This document shows, piece after piece, positions 17,985-51,180 of a DNA stretch of 64,000 nt. The stretch is from Winogradskyella sp. (GTDB taxonomy: Bacteria; Bacteroidota; Bacteroidia; Flavobacteriales; Flavobacteriaceae), in assembly GCA_002722255.1 (NCBI GenBank), contig PBLD01000010.1, positions 138,304 to 202,303 of the forward strand. Reading direction: 5' to 3'. The position numbers and the translations under genes were made by a program. The stretch's first letter is position 1, and each line of letters opens with the position of its first letter. A model generated the notes under the pieces. That model did no database searches. It was not told the origin of the DNA and was given only the letters and a program-made list of their open reading frames with translations.

Positions 17985-18121
17985 AAAGAGGCTGTCTAAA
18001 AAGTCAGTGTTTTGTCAATCTGAACTGGTTTCAGATTCTAAAACAAACTAAAAATCTGCTTATTAAGATTCTGAAATAAATTCAGAATGACAGATTTTTA
18101 GACTTTTTAGACAGCCTCTTT
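17985..18121. repeat. 137-bp element with perfect 21-bp terminal inverted repeats; also terminator
   Basis: The first 21 bases (AAAGAGGCTGTCTAAAAAG plus TC) and the last 21 bases (18101-18121) are perfect reverse complements, followed by a T tract. The interior holds a family A palindromic repeat (18013-18093). The whole can fold into a long hairpin between the convergent rsmG and hydrolase genes and probably terminates both. Its size and ends also resemble a small non-autonomous insertion. Confidence 0.8.
18013..18093 (+). repeat. Palindromic repeat family A, copy 1 (with internal insertion)
   Basis: It starts TGTCAATCTGAAC and ends TTCAGAATGACAG. The same sequence occurs as a compact 49-bp element in reverse orientation at 42061-42109. 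Here about 32 extra bases are inserted between two copies of AGATTCT, as after a small duplication or insertion. Confidence 0.8.
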
Positions 18122-42060: not shown

Positions 42061-42109
42061 CTGTCATTCTGAATTTATTTCAGAATCTGAAACGGGTTCA
42101 GATTGACAG
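42061..42109 (-). repeat. Palindromic repeat family A, copy 2
   Basis: This 49-bp element starts CTGTCATTCTGAAT and ends GGTTCAGATTGACAG. Its reverse complement matches the element at 18013-18093 except for the insertion there. It is made of two nested hairpins (TTCTGAAT/ATTTCAGAA and CTGAAACGGGTTCAG) and lies between convergent msrA and methyltransferase genes. Confidence 0.8.
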
Positions 42110-48415: not shown

Positions 48416-48487
48416 ATTCCTGCGAAATCGAAGATTCACGAAATCAATGAGCTTAAATAAGAATCAATGAGTAAAGCAGGAATCTCA
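48416..48487 (+). repeat. Palindromic repeat family C, long-loop copy
   Basis: ATTCCTGC (48416-48423) and GCAGGAATCTCA (48476-48487) are the ends of the same palindrome found around the GIY-YIG gene at 49 kb, but here the loop is about 52 bases and contains two copies of AATCAATGAG. It lies directly after the kmo stop. Confidence 0.7.
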
Positions 48488-48500
48488 TAAAAAAAATAAA

Positions 48501-48530
48501 CTGTCACTTCGAGCGCAGTCGAGAAGTCTC
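48501..48530 (+). repeat. Palindromic repeat family B, copy 1
   Basis: CTGTCACTTCGAGCGCAGTC followed by GAGAAGTCTC. It folds as ACTTC-GA/TC-GAAGT with a bulge. The core CGAGCGCAGTCGAGA recurs at both ends of the second GIY-YIG cassette (50.8-51.2 kb). Confidence 0.8.
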
Positions 48531-48554
48531 AGGAAGATAAAATAATCAAAAAAT

Positions 48555-48581
48555 AGATTCTGAATCAAGTTCAGAATGACA
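48555..48581 (+). repeat. Palindromic repeat family A, short copy
   Basis: AGATTCTGAATC followed by AAGTTCAGAATGACA. It shares the TTCAGAATGACA end with the copies at 18.0 and 42.1 kb. The ATG in its end (48576) is in frame with the next gene but is unlikely to be its start. Confidence 0.7.
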
Positions 48582-48587
48582 ACCAAT

Positions 48588-49019
48588 ATGAATACAAACG
48601 CAGGAACTAAAGTAACACCAAGAGGTGCATATCCACATGTTAAAGTGGTAGGTGATTTCATTTTCGTTTCAGGAACCAGTTCAAGACGCGCAGACAATAC
48701 AATTGCTGGTGTAGAACTTATTGACGAAATGAACACCAAAAAATTAGATATCGAAATTCAAACTAGAGAAGTTTTAAAAAACATCGATAAAAATTTACAA
48801 ACCGTTGGTGCCAGCTTGAAAGACGTGGTTGATGTAACTACCTTTTTAGTAAACATGAACGATTTTGCAGGTTACAACAAAGCTTACGCCGAGTTTTTTG
48901 AAAAAGAAACTGGACCAACAAGAACAACTGTTGCTGTACACCAATTACCGCATCCTGATTTGTTGGTTGAGATTAAGGTGACTGCATTCCTGCGTAGGCA
49001 GGAATCTCAAAATAAATAA
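48588..49019 (+). CDS. RidA family protein, probable 2-aminomuconate deaminase
   Basis: RidA/YjgF-type protein of 143 residues from the ATG at 48588. The fold motifs are [53 protein letters not shown] and [21 protein letters not shown], with the conserved arginine of the active site. Within a kynurenine cluster RidA members act as 2-aminomuconate deaminase, so that role is inferred. The last residues (FLRRQESQ) are encoded by the left arm of the palindrome at 48986, which appears to have replaced or extended the native C-terminus. Confidence 0.88.
48986..49009 (+). repeat. Palindromic repeat family C, left arm of GIY-YIG cassette 1
   Basis: ATTCCTGCGTAGGCAGGAAT followed by CTCA. It is itself a hairpin (ATTCCTGC/GCAGGAAT) and is a perfect 24-bp reverse complement of 49343-49366. 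It is translated as the end of the RidA protein. In form it resembles the Neisseria dRS3 repeat. Confidence 0.85.
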
Positions 49020-49021
49020 TA

Positions 49022-49342
49022 ATGAACATTTGGTATGTCTACATAATGTCAAACAAACCTAATGGAATTATTTATATTGGAGTTACTAATAATATAGAAG
49101 AAAGAGTAAAAGAGCACAAACTTAAATTATATCCAAATTCATTTACAGCTAAATATAATTGCAATAAATTAATCTATTTTGAAGAATTAACTGAAGCTGA
49201 AGATGCCTATAATAGAGAAAAGAGAATGAAAAAATGGAAGAGAGATTGGAAAATAAAATTAATAGAAAACATGAACCCAAGTTGGATGGATTTAAGTCTA
49301 AATTGGAATTTTAACATGAATAAATTTAGGCATGAAAAATAA
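49022..49342 (+). CDS. Solitary GIY-YIG nuclease family protein (cassette 1)
   Basis: Protein of 106 residues made of one GIY-YIG domain. Catalytic-type motifs are WYVYIMSNKPNGIIYIGVTN, an arginine in NNIEERVKEHK, and the glutamate in EDAYNREKRMKKWKRDWK. It is the YhbQ/UPF0213-like size, with no DNA-binding fusion. The tail NPSWMDLSLNW is typical of the group. It starts 2 bp after the RidA stop and its stop codon overlaps the start of the dehydrogenase gene. It has no expected role in tryptophan breakdown and is bracketed by inverted palindromes, so it is probably part of a mobile unit. Confidence 0.88.
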   Translation: MNIWYVYIMSNKPNGIIYIGVTNNIEERVKEHKLKLYPNSFTAKYNCNKLIYFEELTEAEDAYNREKRMKKWKRDWKIKLIENMNPSWMDLSLNWNFNMNKFRHEK

Positions 49343-50798
49343 TGAGATTCCTGCCTACGCAGGAATAAAAAACTACATAAACGGCGAATTCATAAATCCA
49401 GAAAGCAATCAGTGGATTGACAACTACAATCCTTCAAATGGTGAAGTCTATGGGCAAATCCCAAACTCATCAAAAGAAGATGTAGAACAAGCTTTTCAAA
49501 GTGCTAAATCTGCTTTTCCTAGTTGGAGTCAAACTACTTTAGAAGAACGTAGCAGGATCCTCATTAAGATTTCAGAATTATTAGAAGCCAATCTAGACCG
49601 TTTTGCAGAAGCTGAAAGTAAGGACAACGGAAAACCTGTAAGTCTTGCCAAAATGGTAGATATACCAAGAGCAGCAAGTAATTTCAGGTTTTTTGGTAAC
49701 GCCATAACCCAATTTGCAAGCGAAAGCCATGAAAGCGTTGGTCAAAATGCGGTAAATTATACACTACGCCAACCTATTGGTGTTGTTGGATGTATTAGTC
49801 CTTGGAATTTACCTTTATATCTTTTCACTTGGAAAATAGCACCAGCAATCGCAGCTGGTAATTGCGTCGTAGCCAAACCAAGCGAAGTTACACCAATGAC
49901 AGCGTATTTATTAGGCGAAATTTGCAGCGAAGCTGGTTTACCAAAAGGTGTGTTGAATATTGTTCACGGTTTAGGCACTACGACTGGTCAAGCTATTGTA
50001 GAGCATCCAAATATCAAAGCCATTAGTTTTACTGGCGGAACAGCAACTGGCGCACATATTGCCAAAGTTGCTGCACCAATGTTTAAAAAATTGTCTTTAG
50101 AGTTAGGTGGAAAAAATCCAAATATCATATTTGCCGATTGCGATTATGATGATATGCTGAATACTACAGTACGTTCGTCGTTTGCTAATCAAGGTCAGAT
50201 TTGTTTATGTGGAAGCCGAATTTTTGTAGAAGAAACTATTTATGAGAAATTCAAAGCTGACTTTGTAGAAAAAGTAAAAAGCTTAAAAGTTGGTCATCCT
50301 TCTGAAATAGACACTAATATTGGTGCTTTAGTTTCAAAACCGCATCTTGAAAAAGTGAAAAGCTACATCAAAATTGCTAAAGAAGAAGGCGCAACCATTT
50401 TATGTGGCGGAAACGAAGTTACTGTTGAAGGCTACGAAAATGGTTACTATTTACAACCAACAGTTATTGAGGTTAAAACTGATGATTGTCGCGTAAACCA
50501 AGAAGAAATTTTCGGTCCAGTAGTTACTATTATGCCATTTAAAACTGAAGACGACGTTTTAGAGATGGCTAACAAAGTAAAATACGGATTATCAGCAACA
50601 CTTTGGACTAATAATCTAAAACGAACCATGCGAATGAGCAACCAACTACAAGCAGGTATTGTTTGGGTAAACACTTGGATGATGCGCGATTTACGTACAC
50701 CTTTTGGTGGTGTTAAAGCAAGCGGAGTTGGTCGCGAAGGTGGTTTTGAAGCTTTACGCTTTTTTACTGAAGCTAAAAATGTGTGTATAAAATATTAA
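49332..50798 (+). CDS. Aldehyde dehydrogenase, probable 2-aminomuconic semialdehyde dehydrogenase
   Basis: NAD-dependent aldehyde dehydrogenase of 488 residues. Seen are GVVGCISPWNLPLYLFTWKI, SFTGGTATGAHIA, the general-base glutamate in LSLELGGKNPN, the catalytic cysteine in FANQGQICLCGSRIFVE and EEIFGPVVTIMPF. The GQICLC form is shared with 2-aminomuconate semialdehyde dehydrogenases (ALDH8A1 group), and ACMS decarboxylase is encoded downstream, so it likely oxidises 2-aminomuconate semialdehyde to 2-aminomuconate. Residues 4-12 (NEIPAYAGI) come from the right arm of the flanking palindrome, before the native-looking KNYINGEFINP. Confidence 0.9.
   Translation: MKNNEIPAYAGIKNYINGEFINPESNQWIDNYNPSNGEVYGQIPNSSKEDVEQAFQSAKSAFPSWSQTTLEERSRILIKISELLEANLDRFAEAESKDNGKPVSLAKMVDIPRAASNFRFFGNAITQFASESHESVGQNAVNYTLRQPIGVVGCISPWNLPLYLFTWKIAPAIAAGNCVVAKPSEVTPMTAYLLGEICSEAGLPKGVLNIVHGLGTTTGQAIVEHPNIKAISFTGGTATGAHIAKVAAPMFKKLSLELGGKNPNIIFADCDYDDMLNTTVRSSFANQGQICLCGSRIFVEETIYEKFKADFVEKVKSLKVGHPSEIDTNIGALVSKPHLEKVKSYIKIAKEEGATILCGGNEVTVEGYENGYYLQPTVIEVKTDDCRVNQEEIFGPVVTIMPFKTEDDVLEMANKVKYGLSATLWTNNLKRTMRMSNQLQAGIVWVNTWMMRDLRTPFGGVKASGVGREGGFEALRFFTEAKNVCIKY
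49343..49366 (-). repeat. Palindromic repeat family C, right arm of GIY-YIG cassette 1
   Basis: TGAGATTCCTGCCTACGCAG followed by GAAT, the exact reverse complement of 48986-49009. It is translated as NEIPAYAGI at the N-terminus of the aldehyde dehydrogenase. Confidence 0.85.
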
Positions 50799-50803
50799 TT
50801 TGA

Positions 50804-50830
50804 TGTCGCCTTGAGCGCAGTCGAGAGGTT
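50804..50830 (+). repeat. Palindromic repeat family B, left arm of GIY-YIG cassette 2
   Basis: TGTCGCCTTGAGCGCAGTCG followed by AGAGGTT. It folds with CCTT/GAGG stem bases. Inverted relative to the copy at 51154-51180. Confidence 0.8.
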
Positions 50831-50834
50831 AATT

Positions 50835-51152
50835 ATGAAAACGTATTATGTTTACATATTGAAATGTTCAGATGGGTTAACATATACAGGAATAACAAAT
50901 AACATATCTAGACGATTTGAAGAACACCAAAACGGATTAAATAAAACCTGTTTTACATACAAAAGAAGACCTTTAGAATTAATATTTCAACAAGAGTTTA
51001 ACAATGTAGAACAAGCAATATATTTTGAAAAGAAAATAAAAAAATGGAGTGCAAAAAAGAAATTTGCTTTAGCTAATGGAGAGTATAATTTGTTGCAAAT
51101 TTTAGCTGAATGTAGAAATGCAACACATTCTAAATATAAACCGAACAGTTAA
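50835..51152 (+). CDS. Solitary GIY-YIG nuclease family protein (cassette 2)
   Basis: Protein of 105 residues from the ATG at 50835; the upstream in-frame TTG at 50811 lies in the repeat. One GIY-YIG domain: KTYYVYILKCSDGLTYTGIT, arginines in NNISRRFEEHQ, the glutamate in QAIYFEKKIKKWSAKKKF. The C-terminal part (LANGEYNLLQILAECRN) differs from cassette 1, so the two are related but divergent members rather than a recent duplication. It is bracketed by inverted family B palindromes. Confidence 0.88.
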   Translation: MKTYYVYILKCSDGLTYTGITNNISRRFEEHQNGLNKTCFTYKRRPLELIFQQEFNNVEQAIYFEKKIKKWSAKKKFALANGEYNLLQILAECRNATHSKYKPNS

Positions 51153-51153
51153 G

Positions 51154-51180
51154 TAGGTCTCGACTGCGCTCGACCAGACA
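51154..51180 (-). repeat. Palindromic repeat family B, right arm of GIY-YIG cassette 2
   Basis: TAGGTCTCGACTGCGCTCGA followed by CCAGACA. On the minus strand the stem bases read GGTC/GACC, changed on both sides relative to the other copies, so pairing is kept. Confidence 0.8.

Follow-up and report, generated by a model that had tools for sequence, protein, structure and literature searches.

Most repetitive extragenic palindromes (REPs) are either GTAG-tagged, and then served by REP-associated tyrosine transposases (RAYTs), or CGTC-tagged, and the latter, in the available parts of a 2013 census, "apparently lack a dedicated transposase" (PMC3733652). The same parts describe the CGTC-tagged REPs as having stems of 8–9 bp that nearly always start with AT, loops of 4–5 nt and short, mostly CCA, tails, and as occurring also in inverted dimers; the transposase genes near them amounted to a few fortuitous neighbours, and the organisms covered include Azospirillum lipoferum, Sinorhizobium meliloti, Novosphingobium aromaticivorans, Bradyrhizobium and Neisseria (PMC3733652). 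Here we describe a cassette in a stretch of 64,000 nucleotides from Winogradskyella sp. (contig PBLD01000010.1, positions 138,304 to 202,303; hereafter the window), in which a short GIY-YIG nuclease gene is enclosed by inverted palindromes. An earlier note on this DNA had likened the layout to REPs with their RAYT, and the likeness held, as both the enclosure and a cognate pairing of enzyme and palindrome recurred in the genus and beyond. The cassette is probably a REPtron-like element, whose GIY-YIG nuclease would be the dedicated enzyme of its own CGTC-type, or closely related, REP palindrome, inverted and with the tails pointing inward. This proposal is carried by the enclosure, the orientation, the pairing, scattered copies and dimers, fused alleles that lack the cassette, purifying selection at one site, and the presence of the cassette in a single one of 30 genomes at its site.

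The two ends of the first cassette are arms of 24 nt that are 100% complementary and stand 333 nt apart, and each of them is in turn an 8-4-8 palindrome (ATTCCTGC-4 nt-GCAGGAAT). These perfect inverted hairpin repeats had been pointed out in the earlier note, and their length was reached in none of 500 base shuffles of positions 48901-49500 (highest 19). The product of the enclosed gene belongs to the GIY-YIG family (PF01541, E 6e-17), no other gene was found between the ends, and the neighbours were assigned by Pfam to Ribonuc_L-PSP (ridA) and Aldedh (aldehyde dehydrogenase, ALDH). The C-terminus of RidA and the N-terminus of ALDH are now encoded by the cassette palindromes. The ATTCCTGC palindrome has 28 perfect copies in the 3.2 Mb of its own genome, compared to 0 for a reversed control pattern, and the long-loop copy that had been reported upstream was found again, with its arms 52 nt apart; the spacer between these arms contains a near-direct repeat (AATCAATGAG). 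The gene had also been called solitary, which is wrong, as there is a second cassette at a distance of 1.8 kb. Its GIY-YIG gene is located downstream of the first, past the ALDH gene, and the two are 32% identical. The stem of the second palindrome is short or bulged; the exact core of this palindrome, TCGAGCGCAGTCGAGA, occurs in 5 copies in the genome, 2 of them inside the window. The coordinates of both cassettes are listed in Table 1, together with the clade labels used here (W4 for the first gene, W2 for the second).

PF01541 matches were present in every one of 60 genomes of the genus, with at least 26 in one genome, and the regions compared were those around the short GIY-YIG genes among the matches listed. 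An inverted repeat scoring 14 or more connected the 150-bp flanks of 38 of 116 distinct short genes. The counts were 2 of 79 for neighbouring control genes of these loci, 15 of 580 for random pairings and 0 of 580 for shuffles; when the set was enlarged by 37 loci, the count was 48 of 152 genes, from 52 genomes. The second set, of named loci, consisted of the best 80 of at least 353 relatives, from which 11 were dropped and 69 had an intact gene with full flanks. Here, 44 of 69 genes vs 17 of 263 control genes had a palindrome (up to one mismatch) no more than 100 bp away at each end, and inverted repeats scoring 14 or more were found in 28 of 69 vs 6 of 263. The hairpin score alone discriminated weakly (both sides, 20/69 vs 15/263). 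The suggestion that palindromes flank short GIY-YIG genes above chance was thus borne out in both sets. The arrangement was also regular: the distance from the end of the upstream 8-4-8 palindrome to the start codon was 15–16 nt in 36 of 62 cases of the named set, and where orientation was readable the tails pointed inward, by 37:5 on the left and 45:2 on the right in the named set and by 20:4 and 34:4, respectively, in the genus.

Within a single genome, different GIY-YIG genes have different, cognate palindromes, which are matched at both ends. In the congeneric genomes that have two or more distinct genes (25 genomes), matching ends (score of 14 or more) were found for 27 of 90 pairs from the same gene, compared to 9 of 348 pairs from different genes in one genome (Fisher 2e-13). 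For two Bradyrhizobium genomes, 3 × 3 matrices of three cassettes each (without the remaining GIY-YIG genes of either genome) had diagonals of 47/40/37 and 42/49/31 and off-diagonal values of 7–10; three Bradyrhizobium genomes had 16 GIY-YIG matches, and for the 13 short ones examined the frame was not found in 2 and there were no shared ends in another 2. By eye, neighbours in the protein tree often had the same palindrome type and distant proteins had other types. Across the 60 genomes, with p values that take no account of kinship, TCGAGCGCAGTCGAGA counts were higher where the W2 clade was present (p 0.015, 4e-4 and 7e-6 at 50, 55 and 60% identity), also when the copies within the cassettes themselves were discounted (p 4.5e-5 at the 60% cut), and ATTCCTGC counts were not (p 0.32, 0.17 and 0.10 at the same cuts). 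ATTCCTGC counts were higher with the W4 clade (p 0.012; 0.016 corrected). A clean double dissociation of two clades and two palindromes was not obtained on raw counts and was obtained in part on corrected or conditional counts.

The earlier note had treated the palindrome as particular to the cassette; instead, it belongs to, or lies near, the known CGTC-tagged REPs, a match that was judged from the features described in the available parts of PMC3733652, not from its consensus sequences. GTC-headed matched palindromes with an AT stem and a CCA tail enclose GIY-YIG genes in Azospirillum lipoferum 4B, where the cassette sits between sufB and sufC, and in Shinella, Rhizobium CIAT894 and Neorhizobium. 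GTC-headed matched palindromes with other stem starts do so in Novosphingobium aromaticivorans and Sphingobium, and the ends in Bradyrhizobium have a GTC-type head and stems not starting with AT. In Sinorhizobium meliloti, Neisseria gonorrhoeae (heads inward) and Aeromonas caviae, palindromes lie on both sides, farther away, and in one Sinorhizobium record the GIY-YIG frame was not found. A CGTC or TGTC head is present at the ends in Bradyrhizobium, Azospirillum, Novosphingobium and Rhizobium CIAT894 and in the second window cassette. The first window palindrome has the 8–9 bp stem with AT start and the 4–5 nt loop, and the second has not. Tails were CTC in 44 of 62 cases of the named set and CCA in 4, with CCA at several alphaproteobacterial ends. 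This comparison suggests that short GIY-YIG enzymes are the missing partners of CGTC-type REPs. Beside these, the Shinella cassette (L279) has an entire palindrome dimer on each side, giving an inverted repeat of about 139 bp with a score of 72.

The ridA–ALDH site was compared among the 30 best RidA matches from the 60 genomes. A GIY-YIG gene was present at this locus in the window genome only (1/30), G010 had a palindrome at the matching point of ridA, and no ALDH was detected downstream of ridA in 5 of the 30. The earlier note had proposed a search in relatives for empty sites with a clean junction; empty sites were found, but no clean junction: the cassette has replaced the final ridA codons and the ALDH start, leaving 18 bp of own spacer, and the shortest spacer among the empty sites has 41 bp. 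For a site in Bradyrhizobium, 50 genomes were compared, selected partly by state. With GIY-YIG (33 genomes), at least two REP units (palindromes or dimers) were detected in the spacer by pattern in 29, and G159, G126, G117 and G125 had one unit by pattern and a degenerate second one by eye. Without GIY-YIG (17 genomes), a single palindrome is left in G144 and G162, which bears a GTC-type head at each end and looks like a fusion of the left and right cassette ends; in G172 the left palindrome is joined to the adjacent dimer, and the remaining cassette-free alleles have other repeats. On a tree of the flanks (572 columns, midpoint root) the distribution of GIY-YIG is patchy, which reads best as repeated loss, although repeated gain or recombination of the flanks may also have produced it. 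One Bradyrhizobium cassette (L329) is about 1.4 kb larger near its right end, with a spacer of 1891 vs about 470 bp, and the enlargement is probably an insertion sequence. At the dut site, compared in 30 congeners, the cassette is intact in some, reduced to remnants in others and absent from further ones, whose empty spacers measure 27–39 bp.

Several observations weigh against the proposed REPtron-like element. The ATTCCTGC–W4 association is modest and many genomes have the ATTCCTGC palindrome without the W4 clade; the W2 association varies with the identity cut, and clade membership was taken from the genes among the matches listed. The W4 clade also correlates with the second palindrome (p 0.028), a correlation that was lost once W2 genomes were omitted (p 0.18), and kinship may contribute to all of these values. 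Of the 151 short GIY-YIG genes of congeners, 67 had no palindrome on either side in the strict test, by which short or bulged stems, for example that of the second window cassette, go undetected. No palindromes were found at the GIY-YIG genes of Photobacterium, Rhizobium tumorigenes and Planktothrix, and the one in Spirosoma gave no clear picture. The first window cassette has ends without the GTC head and a CTC instead of a CCA tail, there is neither a target-site duplication nor a clean junction at ridA–ALDH, and cleavage of the palindrome is a predicted step. Finally, one context is common to 30 of the 79 named loci with both neighbours (24 contexts in all), which suggests mostly vertical descent, and no recent transposition burst was seen in the own genome, because its two other W4-clade copies share 67% and 70% identity with the one in the window. 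The free spread of nuclease and palindromes that had been supposed is contradicted by both results. The cassettes seem to move slowly on top of vertical descent, and many copies look inherited vertically or decayed. RAYTs are likewise said to combine slow mobility with vertical descent. As for other vehicles, a phage origin was rejected, since a search of 50,697 phage records with the protein of the first window cassette gave no match (E 1e-5), and so was spread by plasmids, as 35 and 33 plasmid records matched two queries, all below 60% identity and several of chromosome size; 14 of the 35 were examined for ends.

The shared context would also be expected if REPs settled in spacers generally, another enzyme mobilised them and the small resident GIY-YIG gene was a bystander, and the Bradyrhizobium spacer does gather several unrelated repeat types even without GIY-YIG. 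However, left and right palindromes match each other yet differ among the GIY-YIG genes of one genome, the upstream palindrome ends at a set distance from the ATG in 36 of 62 cases, and control genes of the same loci mostly lack the enclosure, which makes such hitchhiking unlikely. A second alternative, to which we give similarly little credence, is a domesticated hairpin nuclease, a host enzyme that resolves or restricts the cruciforms of REPs, a possible role of SLX1 or SbcCD too, and whose palindromes regulate its own gene. That palindrome-to-start distance would suit it, as would the apparent vertical retention and the properties of the enzyme given next. It agrees poorly with the patchy presence, the frequent decay, the ridA cassette in one genome out of 30, and the different palindromes served by different enzymes.

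The residues Y7, Y18, G20, R28, H32 and E66 are conserved in 204–209 of 209 relatives, and the nuclease looks catalytically intact. At the Bradyrhizobium site, the estimated median dN/dS of 0.10 (92 pairs of 23 sequences with usable dS of 0.05–1.5), obtained at a median dS of 1.17 and so close to saturation, showed purifying selection on the predicted gene at this one site. The predicted structure (pLDDT 90) comprises the catalytic fold and a helix (H74-84), followed by a low-confidence tail. It is structurally closest to the UPF0213 protein 1zg2 and SLX1, and then to I-TevI and UvrC, at moderate scores (Z 5–7); in a Foldseek comparison with the PDB no match had an E of 0.001 or better (best 1zg2, 4e-3), and the nearest PDB entries by sequence were 1zg2 and 1ywl. 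Selection at one site and an SLX1-like fold are thus what a domesticated nuclease would also show.

Under the REPtron-like reading, the nuclease would recognise its own palindrome, probably as a hairpin or cruciform (the branched-DNA nuclease SLX1 is among the closest relatives of known structure), and would cut it. GIY-YIG enzymes are not known to form a covalent strand-transfer intermediate, and therefore host repair would complete the process. Annealing or copying between palindromes could duplicate palindromes and dimers and occasionally carry the whole cassette into new sites in a homing-like manner, and annealing between both ends of one cassette could remove the gene and leave a fused solo palindrome. 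If dimers are gene-less cassettes, they should have the same tail-in orientation, and 23 of 25 close pairs of the second palindrome among the matches listed agree, with tails facing in. A single-strand transposon similar to IS200/IS605, whose hairpin-ended strand would be excised and inserted by the GIY-YIG enzyme, would account for the hairpin ends, the head and tail motifs and the deletion products, but is very improbable given that known GIY-YIG chemistry lacks a covalent tyrosine intermediate.

Table 1. Features of the two cassettes and of the solo palindromes nearby (window positions; ALDH, aldehyde dehydrogenase)
Feature	Position	Strand	Details
Left end of first cassette	48986..49009	+	Palindrome ATTCCTGC-GTAG-GCAGGAAT, CTCA tail toward gene; overlaps end of ridA frame
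GIY-YIG nuclease gene, W4 clade	49022..49342	+	106 aa; Pfam
Right end of first cassette	49343..49366	-	Left end inverted; within ALDH frame
ridA	48576..49019	+	Last codons derived from cassette end
ALDH gene	49332..50798	+	First codons (KNNEIPAYAGI) derived from cassette
Left palindrome of second cassette	50805..50829	+	GTC head, GAGCGCAGTCGAG core
Second GIY-YIG gene, W2 clade	50835..51152	+	105 aa; Pfam
Right palindrome of second cassette	51156..51179	-	Inverted, GTC head outward
First-type palindrome	48416..48488	+	Arms 48416-48423 / 48476-48483, 52 nt between arms; tail TCTCA
Solo second-type palindrome	48503..48531	+	GTCA-CTTCGAGCGCAGTCGAGAAG-TCTCA
Solo third-type palindrome	48557..48580	-	GTC-ATTCTGAACTTGATTCAGAAT

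The third-type palindrome (TCTGAA..TTCAGA) also forms GTC-tagged inverted pairs with heads outward at positions 18014-18091 and 42063-42107 of the window, and the members of the latter pair overlap by a few bases. Other repeat arrays were found in the comparison genomes. An array of alternating palindromes (L251, 976-2590) has an embedded GIY-YIG gene with heads inward, contrary to the tail-in cassettes. What resembled a CRISPR array in G067 was rejected as such and is an array of REP dimers. Tandem GIY-YIG arrays in G048 and G010 were considered as amplified cassettes of the present type and rejected, as they belong to another clade and lack these palindromes. The arrays L254 (573-3007) and L253 (793-3375) consist of six and seven similar units with periods of 427 bp and 381 bp, respectively; each unit carries one GIY-YIG gene of another clade, and the first array seems, by eye, to have a tRNA-like stretch. 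The Planktothrix GIY-YIG gene (L280) is located between a gene for an MmeI-type enzyme and the DISARM gene drmA.

Among the matches listed from the open-licence PMC literature, a collection with bioRxiv outside it, titles and abstract openings contained no link of GIY-YIG genes to REPs; one of the papers listed, PMC9465073, contains the terms RAYT, REP and GIY-YIG, and the terms GIY-YIG and GIY are absent from the available parts of PMC12306157, PMC5896051 and PMC6006769, which cite PMC3733652. We consider it slightly better than an even chance that a hairpin-cutting GIY-YIG element with REP ends, a class not met in the literature searched, is the source of CGTC-tagged REPs in several phyla, including dRS3 of Neisseria, and represents a second, independent invention of the REP/REPtron. 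The CGTC-tagged REPs are one of the two large REP superfamilies, and a candidate enzyme is now named for them; since it comes with matched pairing, the question of their dedicated enzyme is directly testable. The proposal, if true, would also explain some of the genes annotated "GIY-YIG nuclease family protein" inside operons, such as those between ridA and ALDH here and between sufB and sufC in Azospirillum.

Among known systems, the cassette ends resemble CGTC-tagged REPs, which include dRS3 of Neisseria and RPE-6/RPE-4 of Rickettsia. The ends in Azospirillum, Rhizobium CIAT894, Shinella, Neorhizobium and Neisseria share their head, AT stem, loop and CCA-like tail, whereas the stems in Novosphingobium, Sphingobium and Bradyrhizobium do not start with AT and the first window cassette is headless with a CTC tail. 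As in a transposon with terminal inverted repeats, the gene is bounded by an inverted pair, but there is no transposase between the ends and no target-site duplication at ridA–ALDH. UPF0213 proteins, SLX1 and UvrC share the fold of the cassette enzyme and differ in being cellular proteins. Free-standing GIY-YIG homing endonuclease genes, such as the Seg group of phage T4, are alike in being solitary and patchy, in having the catalytic residues and in a proposed spread that depends on repair; the cassette gene differs in being enclosed by palindromes, in its size of about 106 aa and in a target thought to be multi-site, and the separate C-terminal DNA-binding domain of homing endonucleases was not seen in its product. 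With the REPtron, in which a RAYT gene is combined with GTAG-tagged REPs or inverted REP pairs (REPINs), the cassette has in common a small enzyme gene within inverted palindromes, repeat-specific enzymes, scattered solo palindromes and inverted dimers. It differs in the head, which is GTC(A) or missing instead of GTAG/GTGG, and in the enzyme, a GIY-YIG nuclease instead of an HUH tyrosine transposase, the only Pfam models that matched cassette enzymes being GIY-YIG and T5orf172. If the proposal is true, the lifestyle of a REP with its own enzyme arose on two unrelated nuclease folds.

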